From positions 1 through 64,000 of the forward strand of contig NZ_RJTM01000085.1 in assembly GCF_003725735.1 (NCBI RefSeq): a stretch of 64,000 nt of DNA. Reading direction: 5' to 3'. A program made the translations under genes and the position numbers. Under the pieces are notes generated by a model. That model had not been told where the DNA came from and ran no database searches. It saw only the letters and a program-made list of their open reading frames with translations. This stretch comes from Sinomicrobium pectinilyticum. Lineage in GTDB: Bacteria > Bacteroidota > Bacteroidia > Flavobacteriales > Flavobacteriaceae. Shown here in pieces: positions 7,137 through 62,966 of this stretch. The first letter of the stretch is position 1. Each line of letters begins with the position of its first letter.

Positions 7137-7487
7137 TCACAGGCAGTTTATCATCTTCCTCTGTTCCTTTATCATTTGTTTTTCTCCCCATTGCGACAAG
7201 TGCTCTATAAAAGGTATGAGCTCTTTCCCCGTTTCGGTAAGGAAATATTCTACTTTGGGCGGAACTTCATGGTATACCTTGCGGTTAATCAGGCCGTCAT
7301 CTTCCAGTTCGCGTAATGTCTGGGTCAGCATTTTGGTGGTTATATCCCGGATGGCCCTGCGGAGTTCCCCGTACCGCAATACCTGATGACGGTGCAGGTA
7401 CCACAATATTCTGCCCTTGTATTTGCCTCCGATACGCCGGAAGGCATAATCGACCGGGCAAATGACCTCATTGTTATTTTTTTTCAT
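7137..7487 (-). CDS. HxlR-family winged-helix regulator
   Basis: A 116-residue HxlR/MarR-like DNA-binding protein: CPVDYAFRRIGGKYKGRILW at the N-terminus, then the recognition region LRRAIRDITTKMLTQTLREL and wing (GLINRKVYHEVPPKVEY). A single Cys sits at position 10, just ahead of helix 1, where YodB/HypR-type members carry a redox-sensing Cys. It is divergent from a metallo-hydrolase, with an inverted repeat between them, so it probably regulates that gene and itself. The effector is unknown. Confidence 0.92.
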   Translation of the reverse strand: MKKNNNEVICPVDYAFRRIGGKYKGRILWYLHRHQVLRYGELRRAIRDITTKMLTQTLRELEDDGLINRKVYHEVPPKVEYFLTETGKELIPFIEHLSQWGEKQMIKEQRKMINCL

Positions 7488-7544
7488 TTTTTTACTACTG
7501 TTAATGTATTGATAATCAGTTTTGGTTTCTTTTTGGTGTGTAAG

Positions 7545-7558
7545 GTACTAAAAAGTAC
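7545..7558. promoter_or_regulatory. Candidate HxlR operator
   Basis: A perfect inverted repeat GTACT-aaaa-AGTAC between the divergent HxlR and metallo-hydrolase genes. GTAC-containing dyads are typical operators of HxlR-family repressors such as YodB and HypR, so this is the likely binding site (inference). Confidence 0.5.
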
Positions 7559-7612
7559 ATACTTGTGAATAGGGAGCTATTGAAATAATTTTGAAACCGG
7601 TAATTTATAAAA

Positions 7613-8617
7613 ATGACTATAATGAACAGAAGAAAATGGTTACGGTTAAGTGCTTTGGCGGGTGGTGTTTATACTATTTCCGGGATAATGGCATTCGGAA
7701 ATACCGGGCAGGAGGGTTATCATTTAAAAAACAGTGGATGCTTACAGCTGCAATTAGGGAAGCTGGAGATCTTTTTGTTTTCTGATGGCCACATTACACT
7801 ACCTGATCCGCAGCCTGTCTTTGCCCCCGAAGTCGATCCGGACCTGGTGGTACGTGAATTGAAACGGATATACCTGAAAGAAGACCAATTGGAAGGCGCT
7901 ATCAATGTCATGGTAATAAAAAACGGAAAACAGGTAATACTGGTAGATACCGGAAGTGGTCATCATTTCGGGGAAACCGGCGGATGGTTACTGAAAAATA
8001 TGGAGGACAAAGGGATCAGGCCATCTGACATTACGGATATACTGATTACCCATGCGCATGTGGATCATATAGGGGGAATTGTAGGTAAAACCGGAGAACT
8101 ACTATATCCGGCTGCCCGGTATTACATAGCGGAAAAGGAGTATGATTTCTGGGCTTCCGGAGATCCCGATTTTTCAGGGAGTAAGAATACGGAAAATCCG
8201 GAAGGCAGCGTCCTTCTGGCTCAGGGAGTGTTCCGGGCTATCGGGAACAAGCTGATAAAATTCAGGTATGGCGATGTGTTGTTTTCCTGCATCCGGACCG
8301 AACTGGCCGAAGGGCATACACCTGGACATACGGTTTTTACCGTTTTTTCTGATGGGGCATTCGTAAAACATATTGTAGATATTGTACATACCCCTTTATT
8401 AATAACAAGGCCCGAATGGGGTACGCAATGGGATGTGGATTTCCATAAGGGAGTAGAAACACGAAAAAGGGTGCTGGAAGAGTGTTATGCCAACCGTACA
8501 CTGGTGATGACCACGCACTTGCCCTGGCCGGGATTGGGATATATAGGGAAAAACGGAAAGGATTATCAATGGGTCCCTTTTTCTTATTTTACGCCAGGTG
8601 AAATTATTGAGATATGA
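7613..8617 (+). CDS. MBL-fold metallo-hydrolase with signal sequence
   Basis: A 334-residue metallo-beta-lactamase-fold hydrolase. A second ATG three codons in (MNRRKWLRLSALAGG) is an equally good start. The N-terminus has an NRRKWLR motif plus hydrophobic stretch that looks like a Tat or lipoprotein-free export signal. The zinc motif ITHAHVDHIGG gives H147, H149, D151 and H152; a further GHTPGHT and TTHLPWPGLG supply the remaining ligands. The family includes lactonases, quorum quenchers and thiol hydrolases, so substrate is unknown. Placement opposite an HxlR regulator suggests induction by an electrophile or small organic compound. Confidence 0.9.
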   Translation: MTIMNRRKWLRLSALAGGVYTISGIMAFGNTGQEGYHLKNSGCLQLQLGKLEIFLFSDGHITLPDPQPVFAPEVDPDLVVRELKRIYLKEDQLEGAINVMVIKNGKQVILVDTGSGHHFGETGGWLLKNMEDKGIRPSDITDILITHAHVDHIGGIVGKTGELLYPAARYYIAEKEYDFWASGDPDFSGSKNTENPEGSVLLAQGVFRAIGNKLIKFRYGDVLFSCIRTELAEGHTPGHTVFTVFSDGAFVKHIVDIVHTPLLITRPEWGTQWDVDFHKGVETRKRVLEECYANRTLVMTTHLPWPGLGYIGKNGKDYQWVPFSYFTPGEIIEI

Positions 8618-21870: not shown

Positions 21871-22084
21871 GTCAAATGTTTTTTTCACCTTTATTTTCCG
21901 GTAGAGGAGAGATAGTAGTGCATTTCATGGGCGAAGTAATGAAAATGATAATTTCGCTGCTGTTTTATCTTTTTATTTTTAAACGGGAATATTATGCATT
22001 CATAATTCTTTAATATCGGACTTACGGATAACCATTCATTTTTATTACATTTATGGTGATATATTTATAAAAACCTTGAAAAAT

Positions 22085-24436
22085 ATGGAGTCCAATACTA
22101 TTTTTTTGCCGATTATTATGGCAATCCTGGGTCTTGTCTATATGCTTGTAAAGGCAACGTGGGTCAAAAAACAGGATGCGGGAAATGAAAAGATGAAATC
22201 CATTTCCAAAAACATCAAAGAAGGCGCACTGGCATTTTTGCAGGCCGAGTATCGCCTTCTTTTCATTTTTGTTATCATTGCGGCTATCGCTCTCGGGGTT
22301 ATAGCTTTTTTTGTGCCCACGACACACTGGCTTATTATTGTGGCCTTTGTTTTCGGAGCTTTCTTCTCTGCTCTGGCTGGGAACATCGGCATGCGTATAG
22401 CCACGGAAAGCAACGTAAGGACTACGCAGGCGGCACGAACCAGTTTGCCGCAGGCCCTTAAAGTCTCTTTTTCGGGAGGTACGGTAATGGGATTGGGTGT
22501 GGCCGGACTGGCAGTTCTGGGGCTCAGTCTTTTCTTCCTGGTATTTACCAAGATGTTCCTTGTTGGTGCGGCGAGTTTTTATGACGAAATGACCATTGTA
22601 TTGGAAGCCCTGGCAGGCTTTTCCCTGGGGGCGGAATCCATAGCCCTGTTTGCACGTGTGGGCGGAGGTATCTATACCAAAGCGGCAGATGTGGGTGCGG
22701 ACCTTGTAGGGAAGGTAGAAGCGGGTATCCCGGAAGACGATCCGAGAAACCCGGCAACCATAGCAGACAATGTAGGGGATAATGTAGGAGATGTGGCCGG
22801 TATGGGTGCGGACCTTTTCGGATCGTATGTGGCTACCGTTCTTGCTTCCATGGTCCTTGGAAATTATATTATCCGGGAAATGGCAGAGGTGAACGGTGGT
22901 TTTACCGATGCATTCGGAGGGATGGGGCCTATTTTACTTCCCATAGTGATTGCCGGAGTAGGTATTATCGCATCGATTATAGGGACCCTGGTAGTGCGGA
23001 TAAGCAGTAATGATGCCAGAGAAGCACAGGTGCAAAAGGCTTTGAATACGGGAAACTGGCTTGCCATTATTTTAACCGTAGTGGCCTGTTACTTTTTGAT
23101 CCGATGGATGCTTCCGCCGACCATTCATATGAAATTTTTCGGGGAAGGATTTAAGGAAATTGCCAGTAATAATGTCTTTTTTGCTACCATTATAGGACTG
23201 GCCGTAGGCGGACTCATCTCATTTTTTACGGAATATTATACCGGCTTGGGTAAAAAACCGGTACTGAATATTGTGCAAAATTCATCAACGGGTGCTGCAA
23301 CCAATATTATAGCGGGGCTGGCTACGGGAATGAAGTCCACTTTTTCATCCGTACTTTTATTCGCAGCAGCCATATGGGGCTCCTACGCCCTGGCCGGGTT
23401 TTACGGAGTGGCCATTGCCGCATCGGCAATGATGGCTACTACTGCCATGCAGCTGGCTATCGATGCTTTCGGACCAATAGCCGATAATGCCGGAGGAATA
23501 GCTGAAATGAGTGAACTGCCGGAAGAAGTCAGGGGACGTACGGATATACTGGATTCCGTCGGTAATACCACTGCTGCCGTGGGTAAAGGATTTGCCATTG
23601 CTTCCGCAGCCCTTACCGCTCTGGCACTTTTTGCAGCATATGTGACTTTTACCGGGATTGACGGTATAAATATCTTTAAGGCCGATGTTCTTGCCGCATT
23701 GTTTATCGGGGGGATGGTGCCCGTTATCTTTTCCGCCCTTGCCATGCAGAGTGTGGGAAAGGCAGCTATGGAAATGGTAAAGGAAGTACGGCGCCAGTTT
23801 CGTGATATTCCCGGAATTATGGAGGGCACCGGGGAACCGGATTATGGCAGGTGTGTGGATATATCCACACAGGCCGCTTTGCGCGAAATGATATTGCCCG
23901 GGGCCATAGCTATTCTTTCGCCCATACTCATAGGCTTTGTTATGGGAGCCGAGGCTTTGGGGAGTTATATGGCCGGTGTGGCGGTGTCCGGAGTGGTATG
24001 GGCCATTTTCCAGAACAATGCAGGAGGTGCCTGGGACAATGCTAAAAAATCTTTCGAGGCCGGGGTGGAAATAGACGGAAAAATGACCTATAAAGGTTCG
24101 GATGCACATAAAGCTGCCGTTACCGGAGATACCGTAGGTGACCCCTTTAAAGATACTTCCGGGCCGTCTATGAATATTCTTATTAAACTGACATGTCTCG
24201 TCGGATTGGTCATTGCACCCATATTGGGAGGACATACTGCTGATACGGCCTCTCTGCGGGAAGATATCCGCAGGGAAGTGGATAGCAGGATGCCTGCCGG
24301 GGAAGACGAAAGTACCCGGGGAGTAATCCTGATGACCGAAACAGCAAACAGTACAACGGTAAAAGAAGAGATCCGGGTAAAAAATGATACTCCGGAAGAG
24401 GTAGAAAAAAACGGTAAAGAGATGAAAGAAAGATAA
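22085..24436 (+). CDS. hppA: Membrane-bound ion-pumping pyrophosphatase
   Basis: A 783-residue membrane pyrophosphatase that couples PPi hydrolysis to H+ or Na+ pumping. I use the ATG before [10 protein letters not shown]; an in-frame TTG three codons earlier is weaker. About 16 TM helices are visible, with the substrate motif [20 protein letters not shown] and [29 protein letters not shown] has Ala where K+-independent enzymes have Lys, indicating the K+-dependent class. After the last helix ([10 protein letters not shown]) there is an unusual charged tail of about 65 residues. H+ versus Na+ cannot be decided by eye. Confidence 0.97.
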
Positions 24437-26495: not shown

Positions 26496-27374
26496 ATGAA
26501 AAATATGAGAAAAACAATGATGACCGGTTTGTTGGTTGCCGGTATGCTAGGTTCCGCTTTTGCCCAGGATTTTCGGGGGAAAGCCGTCTATGAGAGCAAA
26601 ACCTATGTGGATATGGATCTTCAGGGCACAGATATTCCCGAACAGGACAGAAAAAGAATGTTGGAAAGAATGAAACAGGATCTTGAAAAAACTTTTATCC
26701 TGGATTTCACCCGTACGACATCCTTGTACCAGGAAGAAGAACAGTTAGGACAACCTATAGCGGAAAGAGGCGGCATGCGTATGGCAGTTTTCACAGGCCC
26801 GGGAGGAGAGGGGATTTACTATAAAGACGTAAAGAACTTAACGTACTGTAACCAGGTGGAGGTGTTCGGGAAAATATTCCGTATAAAGGACTCCCTGCCT
26901 GACTTGCAATGGAAACTGGACAATGAGACCAGGAAGATCGGCGAATATACCTGCTATAAGGCTACGGCAATAAGAAAAGTATCCCGACCTGGATTTTCAG
27001 TGAAACCGGGTAAGGGAAATAAAAGGGAAAAAACGGCAGATTCGGGTAAAGAACCTGTCGGGGCAGAAGACAAGAAGATCGTCATCACAGCATGGTATAC
27101 TCCTGAAATACCGGTCAACCAGGGGCCGGGAGAATATTGGGGCTTACCGGGGCTTATCCTTGGGGTGGATACCGAAAGGACCTCTATTCTGTGCTCCAAA
27201 ATAATATTGAACTCTCAGGATAAAGAGGAAATAGAAGCCCCGAAAAAAGGGAAAGAGGTCTCCCGGGCCGAATTTGATGAAATCATGCATAAAAAAATGG
27301 AGGAAATGAGAGAAATGCACCGACGTGAAGGCCGAAACCGGGATGGAGGCAGGGTTTTCCGTATCGGCGGATAG
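26496..27374 (+). CDS. GLPGLI family protein
   Basis: A 292-residue exported protein of the Bacteroidota GLPGLI family, named for the motif seen here as WGLPGLILGVD (near residue 217). Signal peptide MKNMRKTMMTGLLVAGMLGS to AFAQ. The middle holds the usual YLDFTRTTSLYQEE-like (FILDFTRTTSLYQ) and ITAWYTPEIPVNQGPGEYWG segments. The C-terminus is highly charged with EMREMHRREGRNRDG. Function is unknown. It sits 60 bases before a large outer-membrane barrel, a pairing often seen for this family. Confidence 0.92.
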   Translation: MKNMRKTMMTGLLVAGMLGSAFAQDFRGKAVYESKTYVDMDLQGTDIPEQDRKRMLERMKQDLEKTFILDFTRTTSLYQEEEQLGQPIAERGGMRMAVFTGPGGEGIYYKDVKNLTYCNQVEVFGKIFRIKDSLPDLQWKLDNETRKIGEYTCYKATAIRKVSRPGFSVKPGKGNKREKTADSGKEPVGAEDKKIVITAWYTPEIPVNQGPGEYWGLPGLILGVDTERTSILCSKIILNSQDKEEIEAPKKGKEVSRAEFDEIMHKKMEEMREMHRREGRNRDGGRVFRIGG

Positions 27375-27434
27375 ATCGGCCCGGACAGAAGGGCTCTTCC
27401 GGTATATTTTTCTTCATAAATAGTGAATAAACCT

Positions 27435-30110
27435 ATGAAATACTGCATATATTTTTTGGTGGGATGTTTCTGTTTTTCTTCCATTTGTGCACAATCGGTC
27501 ACACTCACGGGCACCGTTAAAGACAGTACGGGAGTTTCCCTGGAAATGGCCAATGTGGTAGCTGTCAACCGGGAGACGCAGAATCTCGATGCTTTCGGGG
27601 TGACAAATGCTGAAGGCCGGTACAGGTTACAGTTGAATCGTGGAAAGACGTACGATGTTAAAGTGAGCTATCTGGGAATGAAAACGGAAGAGTTCACCAT
27701 AACCGCACAGGAAGATAGCTTTAAGGAAGTGGTTCTTTTTTCCGAGGCCGATCGTTTGGATGAAGTGGAGGTTACCTACGAAATGCCGGTTACCGTTAAA
27801 GGAGATACTATTATATATAATGCGGATGCTTTTAATAAGGGAACGGAGAAAAAGCTCGGGGATATATTGAAAAATCTCCCCGGCGTTGAAATAACCTCCG
27901 ATGGCGAAATTGAAGTGGAAGGAAAAAAGGTGGGTAGGGTAAAAGTGGAAGGTAAGGATTTCTTTGAAGGTGACTCCAGGCTGGCAGCAGAGAATATTCC
28001 CGCCAATGCAGTGGATAAAGTGGAAGTGCTGCGCAATTTTAACGAGGTCTCCCAGATGAAAGGATTGACGAATGACGACGATAATATTGCACTGAATATT
28101 AAACTGAAGGAAGGGAAAAAGAACTTCTGGTTTGGTGAGATTACGGCAGGTGCAGGCCTGGATGAACGCTATCTTGCCCATCCCAAGTTGTTTTACTACA
28201 GCCCGGAATACAGCCTGAATATTATTGCGGATATTAACAATATCGGGGAGTTGCCGTTTACCATGCGTGATTATTTTAATTTTACGGGAGGATTCCGGAC
28301 TTTCAATCAAAGGGGAGGGACCAGTTTGAACATGGCATCCAATGATCTTGGCCTCTCGCTTATGCAGAATAACCGGGCGAAGGAAATAGATACCAAATTC
28401 GGAGCTTTCAATTTCAGTTATTCCCCTACCGGTTTCTGGGATGTAGGCGGTTTCGCTATTTATTCTTATTCAGGCACGGAAATGCAGACCGATGCATCGC
28501 GGACTTTTATAGAATCGGGAGAGACGGAACATACCACCACGGCGACCGATCAGAAAAGCAAGCTGGGACTGGCCAAGCTGAATTCCGTTTACAAGCCTAA
28601 TGAGGACCTGCAGGTAGATTATGATGTTTTGCTGAAAGTGTCAGACCAGCAGGAGGTCATGGACCGGGTGTCCGTTTCGGATGTTACGGATGATATCCGG
28701 GAATACAGAGAACAGACCCCGCTTACCCTTACGCAGAGCGCCAATGTATACTATACCCTGAACAAAAAAAACATTTTTACGGCAGAGATCAGGCATATGT
28801 ATCAGAACGAAGACCCGTTCTACAATGCAATACGTGATTTACAGCCTTTTCAGGGAGTGTTGCCTTTTGACGACGGACAGAGCGTATATAATATCAATCA
28901 GGAACGATTGGTAAGGACAAACAGGATCGACGCCATGGTAGACCACTACCTGATAACCGGGAAAAAAAGCCATCTCAATTTTACGTTAGGAGCTACCCAT
29001 AGCCACCAGGGTTTTGATTCCGAAATTTTTCAAATCCTGGATAACGGTGCCGAGATGCCGTTGGAAGGGGAAGCTTATACCAATGACGTTACATATAATT
29101 TTTCGGATACCTTTCTCGGGGTTCATTACAAACTGGCAGCCGGTATATTCACACTAAATCCCGGTTTCACCCTGCATGGTTACAGGACAGAAAATAAACA
29201 ATCCGGTTCATCGGTAACCGATAATCTTTTTGCAGTGCTGCCTGATGTCTATATCAATCTTCAGTTTAAAAAATCGGAAAATCTCCGGTTTAACTACGGT
29301 ATAACCAGGGAATTTACTGATGTCAATAAACTGGCGCAGGGGTATGTTTTTAATAATTACAATGCCATATACAGCGGGAACAGGGAATTGGAAAGTGCCC
29401 TGTATCACAGTCTTTCGCTGAATTATTTCAGCTTTAATATGTTTAACTTCACCAATATTTTTGCCGGCTTGTCGTATAATAAACGCATAAACGCTTTAAA
29501 GAGCAGTGGAAATATAGAGGGTATTAACCAGGTGAGTACAACAATAAACTCCGGTTTTGAGGATGACGTGTTTACCGCACTGGGGCGGTATGAAAAACGG
29601 TGGAATCACTACAAGGCCTCATTGAGGGCAAATCTATCCTATTCCAGGTTTAACAATATCGTAAACGAGGAGAGGCGGGTCTCCGAATCGTTTACGCAGG
29701 ATTACCAGTTCAGTATGGCTACGAATTTCCGGGACTTCCCCAATCTGGAACTGGGATATGGATTTAACCGGAATAATTATGACAATGGCGGGAATGCTAC
29801 CACATACTTTACGGACAAACCTTTTATAAAAGTAGATGCTGCCTTTTTAAAAGGGTTTATTTTTGCTGCCGATTACACTTACAACCACTACAGGGATAAG
29901 GAAAAAACAGTGAAAAACGAATATTCTTTTCTCAATGCCGATCTTTCGTACCAGAAAAAAGACAGTCCGTGGGAATACAGCGTGGGAATTACTAACGTAC
30001 TGAACAACGGAGAGCTGAACCAGGATAGCTTTGACGAACTTTATTTTAACAGTTCGAGGTACCTGGTTCAGCCTCGTTATATGATGTTGAAGTTAAAATA
30101 CAACCTGTAA
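27435..30110 (+). CDS. Outer-membrane beta-barrel protein, TonB-receptor-like
   Basis: An 891-residue protein. I use the ATG giving MKYCIYFLVGCFCFSSICAQ; an in-frame GTG lies four codons earlier. CarboxypepD_reg-like domain at about 20-105, a plug-like region (GDILKNLPGVEITSDGEIEV... VEVLRNFNEVSQ), then a long barrel ending YLVQPRYMMLKLKYNL. It lacks the clear siderophore plug signatures. It is likely co-transcribed with the GLPGLI gene and could be its transport or surface partner. Substrate unknown. Confidence 0.9.
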   Translation: MKYCIYFLVGCFCFSSICAQSVTLTGTVKDSTGVSLEMANVVAVNRETQNLDAFGVTNAEGRYRLQLNRGKTYDVKVSYLGMKTEEFTITAQEDSFKEVVLFSEADRLDEVEVTYEMPVTVKGDTIIYNADAFNKGTEKKLGDILKNLPGVEITSDGEIEVEGKKVGRVKVEGKDFFEGDSRLAAENIPANAVDKVEVLRNFNEVSQMKGLTNDDDNIALNIKLKEGKKNFWFGEITAGAGLDERYLAHPKLFYYSPEYSLNIIADINNIGELPFTMRDYFNFTGGFRTFNQRGGTSLNMASNDLGLSLMQNNRAKEIDTKFGAFNFSYSPTGFWDVGGFAIYSYSGTEMQTDASRTFIESGETEHTTTATDQKSKLGLAKLNSVYKPNEDLQVDYDVLLKVSDQQEVMDRVSVSDVTDDIREYREQTPLTLTQSANVYYTLNKKNIFTAEIRHMYQNEDPFYNAIRDLQPFQGVLPFDDGQSVYNINQERLVRTNRIDAMVDHYLITGKKSHLNFTLGATHSHQGFDSEIFQILDNGAEMPLEGEAYTNDVTYNFSDTFLGVHYKLAAGIFTLNPGFTLHGYRTENKQSGSSVTDNLFAVLPDVYINLQFKKSENLRFNYGITREFTDVNKLAQGYVFNNYNAIYSGNRELESALYHSLSLNYFSFNMFNFTNIFAGLSYNKRINALKSSGNIEGINQVSTTINSGFEDDVFTALGRYEKRWNHYKASLRANLSYSRFNNIVNEERRVSESFTQDYQFSMATNFRDFPNLELGYGFNRNNYDNGGNATTYFTDKPFIKVDAAFLKGFIFAADYTYNHYRDKEKTVKNEYSFLNADLSYQKKDSPWEYSVGITNVLNNGELNQDSFDELYFNSSRYLVQPRYMMLKLKYNL

Positions 30111-30127
30111 TTAATTATTTCGACGGA

Positions 30128-30730
30128 TTAAATAATTTCCGCGGCTTCCAGTGCTTTTTCCAGTGCGACGGCCCTGGTGGTTTCCATTGCCGTTCCTTCT
30201 GCACGGAAGATCTCCACATCGGTCATCCCCATAAAACCGAGAACAGCCTTCAGGTAGCCCGGAATAAAATCATACCCCTGGTTTGCTCCTTCGGTATAAA
30301 TTCCGCCGGAAGCCAGTGCAATGTAAACTTTTTTGCCTTTTACCAATCCTTGCGGGCCGTTTTCCGTGTAGTGGAAAGTTAATCCCGCTCTGGCAATATG
30401 GTCAATCCACGCTTTTAATTGTGAAGGGATGCTGAAGTTATACATAGGGGCTCCCAATACCAGAATGTCCGCTTCAAAAAGTTCCCGGACCGATCTTTCG
30501 GATTGTTGTATGGCCCTGATATCGTCAGATGTCCGGTCCTCCTCGGGAGTGAAGAACGCATTTACCGTTTCGGTCTGCATATGCGGAAAAACCTCGCGGA
30601 CCAGGTCCCTTTCTTTTACCCGTACTTCCGGGTATACTTCTTTAAGTCTTTCTATAATGGCGTTTCCCAGCCGGGTGCTGTAAGAATTCTCGCTCTGTAG
30701 GCCCGATTTAATATGCAATATATTTTTCAT
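30128..30730 (-). CDS. azoR: FMN-dependent NADH:quinone oxidoreductase / azoreductase
   Basis: A 200-residue flavodoxin-fold azoreductase: MKNILHIKSGLQSENSYSTR binds FMN phosphate, followed by PMYNFSIPSQLKAWIDHIAR and ASGGIYTEG. AzoR enzymes reduce quinones by two electrons and azo dyes in vitro, protecting against electrophile stress. It is divergent from an HxlR regulator with a 24-bp perfect palindrome between, an arrangement like B. subtilis YodB-AzoR1. A TACTTTTG promoter element lies on the minus strand at 30747-30754. Confidence 0.94.
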   Translation of the reverse strand: MKNILHIKSGLQSENSYSTRLGNAIIERLKEVYPEVRVKERDLVREVFPHMQTETVNAFFTPEEDRTSDDIRAIQQSERSVRELFEADILVLGAPMYNFSIPSQLKAWIDHIARAGLTFHYTENGPQGLVKGKKVYIALASGGIYTEGANQGYDFIPGYLKAVLGFMGMTDVEIFRAEGTAMETTRAVALEKALEAAEII

Positions 30731-30786
30731 GTTTGTAATTTTTATTCAAAAGTACGTATCTTTACTTTACAATTTATAGTAGTATA

Positions 30787-30810
30787 CAAAAGGTTAGTAC
30801 TAACCTTTTG
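30787..30810. promoter_or_regulatory. 24-bp perfect palindrome, likely HxlR operator
   Basis: CAAAAGGTTAGT is followed directly by its exact reverse complement, with core TTAGTACTAA. It lies between azoR and the HxlR gene, 30 bases before the regulator's ATG. The GTAC centre matches operators of YodB/HypR-type repressors. Confidence 0.75.
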
Positions 30811-30840
30811 GTAAGTAGATGTAATTTTATATTGAAGATC

Positions 30841-31191
30841 ATGAAAGGAGCCATTTCAAAAGAAGTTTGTCAGAAAAGACTAAAAGGGATTGATGATGCC
30901 CTGTATGCCATAGGGGGTAAATGGCGGCTTAAGATCATCATTGCCCTGAGGGAAGGATATACCAGGTTTAATGAAATCCAGCGGACGATAGGGATTTCGG
31001 CCAAAATGCTTTCGATAGAATTAAAGGAACTGGAACTTAACGGTTTTTTGAAACGGGAAGTACACACCGGGCCTCCTGTTGTTGTGGAATATAAGCTCAC
31101 CGAATACAGCGATACCCTCGAAGGTGTTCTGCAGGCATTAAGTGACTGGGGGGAAAACCATCGGGAAAAAATAAGGCGGGAGCGTTCCTGA
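30841..31191 (+). CDS. HxlR-family regulator, probable thiol redox sensor
   Basis: A 116-residue winged-helix regulator. The ATG before KGAISKEVCQKRLKGIDDA is the natural start; an in-frame TTG upstream would lie inside the operator palindrome. The recognition helix region is FNEIQRTIGISAKMLSIELK; the wing is KREVHTGPPVVVEYKL. A Cys at position 10 matches the location of redox Cys in YodB (Cys6) and of Cys10 in the other HxlR protein of this window. It probably represses azoR and responds to quinones or diamide-like agents (inference from context). Confidence 0.9.
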   Translation: MKGAISKEVCQKRLKGIDDALYAIGGKWRLKIIIALREGYTRFNEIQRTIGISAKMLSIELKELELNGFLKREVHTGPPVVVEYKLTEYSDTLEGVLQALSDWGENHREKIRRERS

Positions 31192-31248: not shown

Positions 31249-31815
31249 ATGAATGAGTTAGTTGATTTTTTATTGGGGTTCGGTCGCCTGGCTCCTATGG
31301 ATATTGAACTTATAGAGCGTAAGACAGAAGAAGTGGGCGTTGCAAAAAATACGAGGCTTGCCAAGGCTTCCCAGTTTATCGATGAGCTCTGGTTTGTTAA
31401 AGAGGGGGTTACACGAGTTTATTACTATACCGAAAAAGGCGAAGAGATCACTAAATATTTCATCGATGAACTTCATTTTTCCAGCGATGCCAATAGCTTT
31501 CTCTATCGTATTCCCACGACTTCTTATGTGGAAACGATAACCGATTGTCTATTAATTAAAATTCCCCGTTCATCTTTTGAGGTGTTTTCTGAAAAGATTC
31601 CGGGCTGGAACGAACTCATTTCCAGGATTGTCACTCAGGCCATGCAGGACAAAGTCAACAGGATCAGCCCGATGCTTGCCGAAACCGGGAAAGAGCGTTA
31701 CCTGAAGTTTATGGAGCGTTATCCCGCATTGCTAAACCGCATCCCCCTTAATCTGCTGGCTTCCTATTTGGGAGTTACCAAATATTCGTTAAGCCGTATC
31801 CGGAAAAGCATGTGA
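31249..31815 (+). CDS. Crp/Fnr-family transcriptional regulator
   Basis: A 188-residue cyclic-nucleotide-binding-fold regulator. Residues 20-115 form the jelly-roll domain (ELWFVKEGVTRVYYYTEKGE), with no clear cAMP-binding RxS motif, so the ligand is unknown. The C-terminal helix-turn-helix reads IPLNLLASYLGVTKYSLSRI. It has no Cys cluster, ruling out a 4Fe-4S Fnr. It lies just upstream of an aldo/keto reductase gene, with a TTGCCA/TGGCAA dyad between them. Confidence 0.92.
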   Translation: MNELVDFLLGFGRLAPMDIELIERKTEEVGVAKNTRLAKASQFIDELWFVKEGVTRVYYYTEKGEEITKYFIDELHFSSDANSFLYRIPTTSYVETITDCLLIKIPRSSFEVFSEKIPGWNELISRIVTQAMQDKVNRISPMLAETGKERYLKFMERYPALLNRIPLNLLASYLGVTKYSLSRIRKSM

Positions 31816-31828
31816 ATTACCGGATTAG

Positions 31829-31842
31829 TTGCCAAATGGCAA
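31829..31842 (+). promoter_or_regulatory. Candidate Crp/Fnr-type operator
   Basis: TTGCCA-AA-TGGCAA is a perfect dyad 52 bases upstream of the aldo/keto reductase ATG. A CATTTTTG element at 31865-31872 is near the promoter consensus; it would put the dyad centre at about -43, the normal position of a class II activator site. Confidence 0.5.
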
Positions 31843-31894
31843 TTTTATTCTCCTTTGGATGCATCATTTTTGTAAAAACAAAAACGCAAAAGAA

Positions 31895-32779
31895 ATGAGT
31901 ATTCAAAAAACGATTACGATTGGGGCAAAAACCGGACATCCTTTGACAGTTAAACGATTTGGCTACGGCAGCATGCGGTTAACGGGGGAAGAAATGATTT
32001 GGGGCGAACCCAAAAACAGGCCGGAGGCATTACAGATATTAAAAACGGCAGTTCGTGAGGATATAAAATTCATCGACACGGCAGATTTTTACGGCGATGA
32101 TGTCACCAACAGATTAATAGCAGAAGCTTTATATCCTTACCCCGATGATCTGGTCATATGCACAAAAGTTGGTGCCGATAGGGGCGCTGATAAAAGCTGG
32201 AGGTTTTATGATACCCCCGAAAATTTAAGAGCGGGTATAGAAAATAATTTAAAGACCTTAAAAACAGAACAATTACCGTTGGTCCATTTAAGGATAATGC
32301 CCGGGTCAGATACCCCTTTGGAAGAGTCTCTCGGGGCTATGTTCGAAATGCAGAAGGAAGGTAAAATACTGCATGTAGGATTGAGTAATGTGAGTCCTGA
32401 TGAATTAAATAAAGGATTAACAATGGGAAATATAGCCAGTGTTGAAAATGCTTTCGGTTATGCTCAGAGGACCACTTTTGAGATGCATGGAATGGAAATC
32501 AGGGGGCTGCAGGAAGTAATGGATAGATGCCTGGCAGATAAAATTGTGATGATTCCTTTCTGGTCTTTGCAAAGTTCAGTTTTAAAAGAAGACCGCAGGA
32601 TCTCGGAGATCGCTGATAAATATAAAGTGACCGCGGCCCAGATAAACCTGGCCTGGACACTACATCTTAATGATTTGATGCTCCCTATTCCGGGAACTTC
32701 AAAATTAAATCATTTTAAGGAAAACATACAAGCATTGAATATTCCTTTGACAGATGAAGACATGGAGTTTTTAGGTTGA
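31895..32779 (+). CDS. Aldo/keto reductase
   Basis: A 294-residue NADPH-dependent AKR with TIM-barrel fold. The catalytic tetrad is visible as D61 and Y66 (FIDTADFYG), K91 (CTKVG) and H131 (LVHLRIMPG). The ATG before SIQKTITIGAKTGH is used; a TTG-initiated extension would run through the operator. Base composition is more AT-rich than its neighbours, hinting at acquisition. Substrate unknown. Probably controlled by the Crp/Fnr protein just upstream. Confidence 0.93.
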   Translation: MSIQKTITIGAKTGHPLTVKRFGYGSMRLTGEEMIWGEPKNRPEALQILKTAVREDIKFIDTADFYGDDVTNRLIAEALYPYPDDLVICTKVGADRGADKSWRFYDTPENLRAGIENNLKTLKTEQLPLVHLRIMPGSDTPLEESLGAMFEMQKEGKILHVGLSNVSPDELNKGLTMGNIASVENAFGYAQRTTFEMHGMEIRGLQEVMDRCLADKIVMIPFWSLQSSVLKEDRRISEIADKYKVTAAQINLAWTLHLNDLMLPIPGTSKLNHFKENIQALNIPLTDEDMEFLG

Positions 32780-62940: not shown

Positions 62941-62966
62941 ATTGCCCGGAATGCATTCCGGGCAAT
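62941..62966. terminator. 26-bp perfect palindrome after purH
   Basis: ATTGCCCGGAATG is followed directly by its exact reverse complement. It lies 30 bases beyond the purH stop and 58 bases before the mre promoter element. No T-run follows on the minus strand, so it may be a factor-dependent terminator, an RNA stabiliser or a protein-binding site. Confidence 0.55.

Follow-up and report, generated by a model that had tools for sequence, protein, structure and literature searches.

A divergent azoR–hxlR gene pair of Sinomicrobium pectinilyticum with a conserved N-terminal cysteine and an 18-bp-period operator: a putative one-cysteine counterpart of the YodB switch

Introduction

YodB, CatR and QsrR regulate azoreductases, nitroreductases and dioxygenases (PMC6798810, in the section cited here). 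The reactive Cys6 of YodB lies at the N-terminus of a helix, and its activation is attributed to the helix dipole; the YodB box is TACT-N7-AGTA (PMC8063818). Another family member, B. subtilis HxlR, acts as an activator; its Cys11 reacts with formaldehyde, and in other members the equivalent residue is described as a sensor of electrophiles or oxidants (PMC7835342). At catDE two CatR boxes belong to one promoter, which provides a precedent for multiple boxes of HxlR-family regulators; these stand together with YodB and Fur boxes, and the cited section of that paper describes no 18-bp array (PMC6212828). In the cited portions of these papers, quinone or electrophile sensing by HxlR proteins has so far been described from Bacillota. 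A literature search that left most subscription papers outside found none on HxlR-family regulators in Bacteroidetes or an HxlR cysteine in Bacteroidota, and a search of the same coverage found none on a Flavobacterium HxlR with an azoreductase or on an HxlR with YceI and DoxX.

The window, by which we mean the whole 64,000-nucleotide stretch of S. pectinilyticum DNA analysed here, holds a gene pair that appears to share with YodB, QsrR and CatR the logic of an N-terminal reactive Cys and an azoreductase-type detoxification target. A sequence-only reading had described it as a YodB-AzoR-like switch. The comparison with relatives supports it as to the pair, which is conserved, the N-terminal Cys, which is invariant, and the palindrome, which is conserved; the equivalence to YodB Cys6 and the idea of two sensors of the same type are not supported.

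Results

The azoR gene occupies 30128..30730 on the minus strand and encodes an FMN-dependent NADH azoreductase/quinone reductase of 200 amino acids. A profile search matched the product to PF02525 (E=2.2e-50), and its best PDB match is 4c0w, FMN-dependent NADH-azoreductase 1 (E=8.9e-41). The Flavodoxin_2 domain is accompanied by a full-length match to characterised azoreductases, and along that match we noticed no difference between the window azoR and the solved AzoR structures. Divergent from it lies hxlR (30841..31191, plus strand, with its ATG at 30841 and its stop codon ending at 31191), whose product of 116 amino acids is an HxlR/DUF24 winged-helix regulator (PF01638, E=8.3e-25; 86.9 bits against a curated cut-off of 20.8). 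This protein scores below the NCBIfam cut-offs for RrpB (61.9 bits against 175) and RrpA (50.4 against 185). The divergent arrangement described earlier is thus confirmed in coordinates and domains, and the pair is conserved in relatives. The closest named relatives, among the best 80 of 563, are those of Sinomicrobium oceani (86% identity) and S. weinanense (85%), and azoR is divergent in both.

Downstream of hxlR and in its orientation, 31249-32779 holds a Crp/Fnr-like cNMP-binding regulator gene (PF00027) and an aldo/keto reductase gene (PF00248); neither has a match beside hxlR in the S. weinanense locus (L055). On the azoR side, at 26496-30110 and convergent with azoR, a GLPGLI-family protein adjoins a large protein with a carboxypeptidase-regulatory-like domain.

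The relatives used throughout are the best 80 of 563 from one scan of named genomes, with 59-86% identity. The scan patterns, LY[AV]IGGKW and ISA[KR][MV]LSxEL, exclude the Cys, and ranking was by similarity over the whole query. A held-out set consisted of 11 new loci from the phylum sample, picked by similarity to the window HxlR (13 minus two already in the 80). We took as the divergent gene the longest minus-strand ORF ending near hxlR, which six of the 80 loci did not yield. Among the remaining 74 ORFs, some of which match more than one family, 34 are Flavodoxin_2 (azoreductase), 18 DoxX_2 and 12 YceI, and the rarer families are MauE (four), pirin (three), DUF2652 (three), DoxX (two), nitroreductase (one) and NmrA (one). 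Three more loci (L054, L069 and L078) have azoR one gene further out, behind a DoxX_2 gene. The regulator and operator form a constant block, and the target gene is exchangeable.

Cys10 is the sole Cys of the window HxlR and lies 18 residues before Trp28, the Trp of GGKW (Trp-18; other positions are numbered likewise). The sequence-only reading had made conservation of this N-terminal Cys one of its tests, and it is conserved, at Trp-18 in all of the best 80 of 563 relatives and in all 11 held-out loci. At positions -24 to -19 and -17 to -15 the most frequent residue is found in at most 40 of these best 80 of 563, Leu occupies Trp-14 in 79 of them, and 69 have no other Cys.

The AF2 model of the window HxlR (mean pLDDT 91.6) has a first helix of residues 7-24, with Cys10 as its fourth residue, in the first turn. 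Among the matches listed, the closest solved structures are HypR (YybR), HxlR of B. subtilis and YtcD; YodB (5hs7, Z 13.4) and QsrR bound to DNA (4hqe, Z 12.8) have the HxlR fold in common with it. Structural alignment pairs YodB residue 4 with residue 12 of the model, which puts Cys6 near residue 14, a Leu; in YodB, HypR and HxlR alike the sensor Cys falls on model residues 14-15, with offsets inferred from the ends of the aligned ranges. Cys14 of HypR is at the Trp-13 position by alignment (HypR 13-116 with model 14-116), as is Cys11 of B. subtilis HxlR (PMC7835342). Cys10 therefore sits four to five residues earlier than Cys6 of YodB (Trp-18 against near Trp-14), Leu14 takes the Cys6 position, and the C-terminal partner Cys of YodB (Cys101/108) has no counterpart, so that equivalence of the two N-terminal cysteines is not supported. 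Judging from the model, the Cys is still located close to the start of a helix, on a longer one.

Some HxlRs of the same clade have Cys at Trp-19, His, or neither in place of Cys at Trp-18, so the clade can function there without a Trp-18 Cys. In four loci (L013, L036, L038 and L040) His replaces this Cys, a possible loss of the thiol sensor; by eye, these hxlR genes are divergent from SDR-like genes.

The window encodes a second HxlR (7137..7487, minus strand; N-terminus MKKNNNEVICPVDYAFRRIGGKYKG), which does have 116 amino acids and a Cys10, as had been stated. Counting back from the aromatic residue of GGK[WY], this Cys is at -13, the canonical position. The set assembled for the second HxlR comprised 30 loci and 10 hand-picked paralogues from its own genome, of which 17 of 40 failed the motif and were excluded. 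The proposal of two thiol sensors of one type does not survive the comparison: the Cys positions differ (-18 against -13, the latter shared by 22 of the 23 counted loci of the second type), and the 18-bp repeat occurs in one of those 23. Judged by sequence, the two 'Cys10' coincide by number alone. At 7137-8617 the second HxlR gene is divergent from a gene for a metallo-beta-lactamase-fold protein with sub-cut-off similarity to AidB lactonase, and GTACTTTTTAGTAC lies between them.

A tree of 114 sequences, YodB not among them, was rooted on the second HxlR. One node (support 0.83) contains all of the -18 and -19 proteins together with eight that have neither, and the remaining five -13 proteins in the tree fall outside it. 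The window subfamily together with L024 has a support of 0.99. The window hxlR fits the clade defined here by its Cys at Trp-18, its 18-bp-period operator and its position in the tree.

Between azoR and hxlR the sequence-only reading had pointed out a perfect 24-bp palindrome centred on GTAC. It is present at 30787..30810 (CAAAAGGTTAGTACTAACCTTTTG) and forms the conserved central operator dyad. About 0.004 such palindromes are expected per 64 kb from base composition, and 30 Markov-2 resamplings of the window gave none of at least 24 bp, the longest being 22. About the central axis, 49 of 79 relatives from the best 80 of 563 keep eight or more of 10 pairs complementary (mean 7.15 of 10; 10 of 10 in the window). 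The axes of the individual units average 4.67 and 4.94 of 10 pairs (5 and 7 in the window), and conservation is thus highest for the central dyad.

The palindrome is the meeting point of two strong 20-bp units, which make up the operator core (30780..30817). These are TAGTATAC-AAAA-GGTTAGTA (30780-30799) and TACTAACC-TTTT-GGTAAGTA (30798-30817), offset by 18 bp and providing four half-sites. Across the best 80 of 563 relatives the full operator has four to six half-sites with an 18-bp period. A third 18-bp unit (30762..30779) is clear in consensus columns -15..-1 and poor in the window; as it is degenerate there, we do not claim it as functional in the window.

A scoring template derived from the genus loci, TACTNACC-N4-GGTNAGTA, was run upstream of the 80 hxlR genes. 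It scored at least 10 of 14 in 72 of the best 80 of 563 relatives, against 53 of 1600 base shuffles, and the best other site lay at exactly +18 or -18 in 74 of these 80, leaving six without such a partner by score. The partner is present in 33 of the 34 loci with azoR as immediate neighbour and in 9 of the 11 held-out loci, being absent by score in L179 and L183. Autocorrelation over shifts 8-40, which uses no template, also peaked at 18, with at least 12 of 16 matches in 52 of 79 loci against about 2% of resampled ones, and a minor echo at shift 36 (7/79). For the window alone, 18 is absent from the two best shifts of its self-similarity. The aligned consensus reads approximately GCTTACAAAANGTTAG, TAGTATACAAAAGGTTAG and TAGTAACCTTTTGGTTAGT in succession. 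Its outer half-sites (columns 2-7 and 30-35) are about as conserved as the inner ones, and conservation drops directly after column 36. Because there are four half-sites, the sequence suggests two dimers, whose dyads could coincide either with the unit axes or with the central one. The view of the palindrome as an accidental seam between two dimer sites is weakened, its axis being the best conserved dyad, and is kept as one of two binding modes.

The window operator is an 18-bp-period array, and 30731-30840 contains no exact YodB box (TACT-N7-AGTA). A match at seven of eight positions, TACA-N7-AGTA, lies within the operator at 30785-30799, in a conserved stretch, so the two kinds of DNA site may be related, and the view that the operator bears no resemblance to the YodB box was abandoned.

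We also looked for the array in a mixed set of 40 loci, less two without a match, one without the motif and four repeats. A shift of 18 reached at least 11 of 16 in 8 of 15 Trp-18 loci as against 6 of 18 others, namely three Trp-19 loci (L011, L030, L035), two with neither (L028, L036) and one Trp-13 locus (L047). The array is therefore not strictly exclusive to Trp-18 proteins. Three paralogues of the clade (L010, L032, L049) have CTATCC/GGATAG half-sites in a similar upstream 18-bp array, so specificity may diverge while the spacing stays. Elsewhere in the window there is a perfect 26-bp palindrome, ATTGCCCGGAATGCATTCCGGGCAAT, between two minus-strand ORFs (62941-62966; perhaps a terminator), and a perfect 20-bp palindrome (23852-23871) within the long ORF 22076-24436.

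In the aligned relatives the array abuts, on its upstream side, CAAAnnTA-nn-TAnnTTTG, two back-to-back -7 boxes; TAnnTTTG is the -7 box of flavobacterial sigma-A, located at -12 to -5 (PMC9723704). The left box is exact in 66 of 79 relatives from the best 80 of 563; in the same 79 the right box is exact in 40 and has at least five of six bases in 63. The window has candidate boxes for hxlR at 30757..30764 on the plus strand (TATCTTTA, consensus TAnnTTTG) and for azoR at 30747..30754 on the minus strand (CAAAAGTA, the reverse complement of TAnnTTTG). Read in both directions, the double boxes predict a bidirectional promoter, and -7 spacing would put the starts near 30769 for hxlR and near 30742 for azoR. 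By inspection, a TTTG at 30732..30735 on the plus strand, 21 bp before the -7 box, is a candidate for what we take to be the -33 motif of hxlR. The array extends over the region in which hxlR is predicted to start and over the azoR upstream side, which would suit repression of both genes.

The window's own genome has 19 HxlR matches. A search of that genome with the operator pattern picked out, besides the present locus, one DoxX-like/HxlR locus (C66, one mismatch), the remaining matches, with two to three mismatches, being no better than the reversed-pattern control. C189 and C133 were rejected as regulon sites, as their matches fall within reading frames. One scan of viral contigs found no exact operator pattern.

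Counting the window's own genome in both cases, HxlR matches occur in 5 of 199 same-family genomes at E <= 1e-28 and in 13 of 395 phylum-sample genomes at E <= 1e-30; in some genomes of the latter sample the scoring covered part of the candidates. Among plasmids 888 records matched, of which eight were inspected, too few to speak to restriction to the phylum. Two of the eight are Bacteroidota HxlRs with Cys at Trp-18 and Trp-19; the other six come from other phyla, with the Cys at -13 in five and an N-terminal Cys missing from the sixth (L190 and L191 by eye). On a Bacteroides finegoldii plasmid (L185, 1362-1461) the HxlR has its Cys at -19, and the upstream 18-bp-period repeat has another half-site. 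A contig labelled as a Williamsia MAG, an actinobacterial name, carries an HxlR and an operator of the Bacteroidota type, with pirin as the divergent gene (L073); the contig is perhaps misassigned.

Discussion

The gene pair, the Cys position, the array, the double -7 boxes and the exchangeable neighbours can be read from the DNA, and our preferred reading, which we hold to be probable rather than secure, is an autoregulated one-Cys, electrophile-responsive HxlR repressor of azoR and of itself. Reduced HxlR dimers, two to three per operator, would sit on 18-bp-spaced pairs of half-sites beside the double -7 boxes, covering the hxlR start region and the azoR upstream region and keeping both genes low. 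A quinone, or another electrophile or oxidant, would modify Cys10, whereupon the dimer would change shape and leave the DNA, and azoR would then be expressed and reduce the quinone or azo compound. With Cys10 as the sole Cys, the chemistry may be S-alkylation, a mixed disulfide or a Cys10-Cys10' disulfide; a Cys6-Cys101' bridge of the YodB kind would not form. Repression rather than activation is our inference; the sign of regulation cannot be read from a family in which B. subtilis HxlR acts as an activator. The link to quinones is plausible, and as azoR is the neighbour in just 34 of 74 loci, quinone is a guess among electrophiles. Against the preferred reading stand the clade members without a Cys at Trp-18, the weak third unit of the window, the place of 18 outside its two best self-similarity shifts, the loci without a partner at +18 or -18 and the repeat at the Trp-13 locus L047.

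Mainly activating HxlR, or a formaldehyde-type intrahelical Cys-Lys crosslink like that of Cys11-Lys13 in B. subtilis HxlR, seems to us quite improbable, even though the window has Cys10-Gln-Lys12, a C-x-K with the spacing of Cys11-Lys13 (PMC7835342), and B. subtilis HxlR (7bzd/7bze) heads the structural matches listed (Z 14.6-14.9). The window Cys is at Trp-18 and that of B. subtilis HxlR at Trp-13, and the location of the array, downstream of the hxlR -7 box, fits repression of hxlR. As a family trait the crosslink is disfavoured because Trp-16 is Lys in just 5 of the best 80 of 563 relatives (Ala in 27, Ser in 20, Gly in 16). A two-Cys switch of the YodB type, in which an N-terminal and a C-terminal Cys form an intersubunit disulfide, would suit a protein of the same family as YodB with similar target genes, but we consider it very improbable: the window HxlR has no second Cys, and a Cys at Trp+60 or beyond is found in just 6 of the best 80 of 563. 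Cys10 might instead be structural or sense another signal, such as a metal, persulfide or hypochlorite, with the azoR pairing incidental. That azoR adjoins fewer than half of the relatives, and that the neighbours YceI, DoxX and pirin suggest stress of a wider kind, is consistent with such a role. We nevertheless think it unlikely, as azoR is the commonest neighbour and the Cys is on its own in 69 of the best 80 of 563, which speaks against a metal site rich in Cys.

A single dimer on the central palindrome, about the GTAC axis, with the outer half-sites as accessories, would agree with the rank of this axis as the best dyad, in the relatives and in the window alike. Against this, the outer half-sites are conserved like the inner ones and the fall-off after column 36 fits two flanking dimers around a central two-fold, and at a paralogous locus (L029) it is the other type of axis that carries a palindrome, near-perfect with 13 of 14 pairs. 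We regard the single dimer as possible, if doubtful.

By analogy, the electrophile-responsive repressor that we prefer would resemble YodB and QsrR in its working and differ from them in its build, having neither the Cys position of YodB nor a partner Cys. We give about even chances to a wider picture, that of a one-Cys HxlR clade of the Bacteroidota's own. Its Cys would lie roughly one helical turn upstream, on an extended first helix, and two or three dimers would bind an 18-bp array joined to a bidirectional double -7 promoter. This block would stay fixed while detoxification genes (azoR, DoxX, YceI, pirin, nitroreductase) are swapped beside it.

For work on other members of the family, the two proteins of the window are a caution that 'Cys10' is not to be equated between HxlRs by number. 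The promoter layout is common to Mucilaginibacter, Pedobacter, Chitinophagaceae, Dyadobacter, Flavobacterium and others, and the locus offers a testable operator and one residue for mutation.
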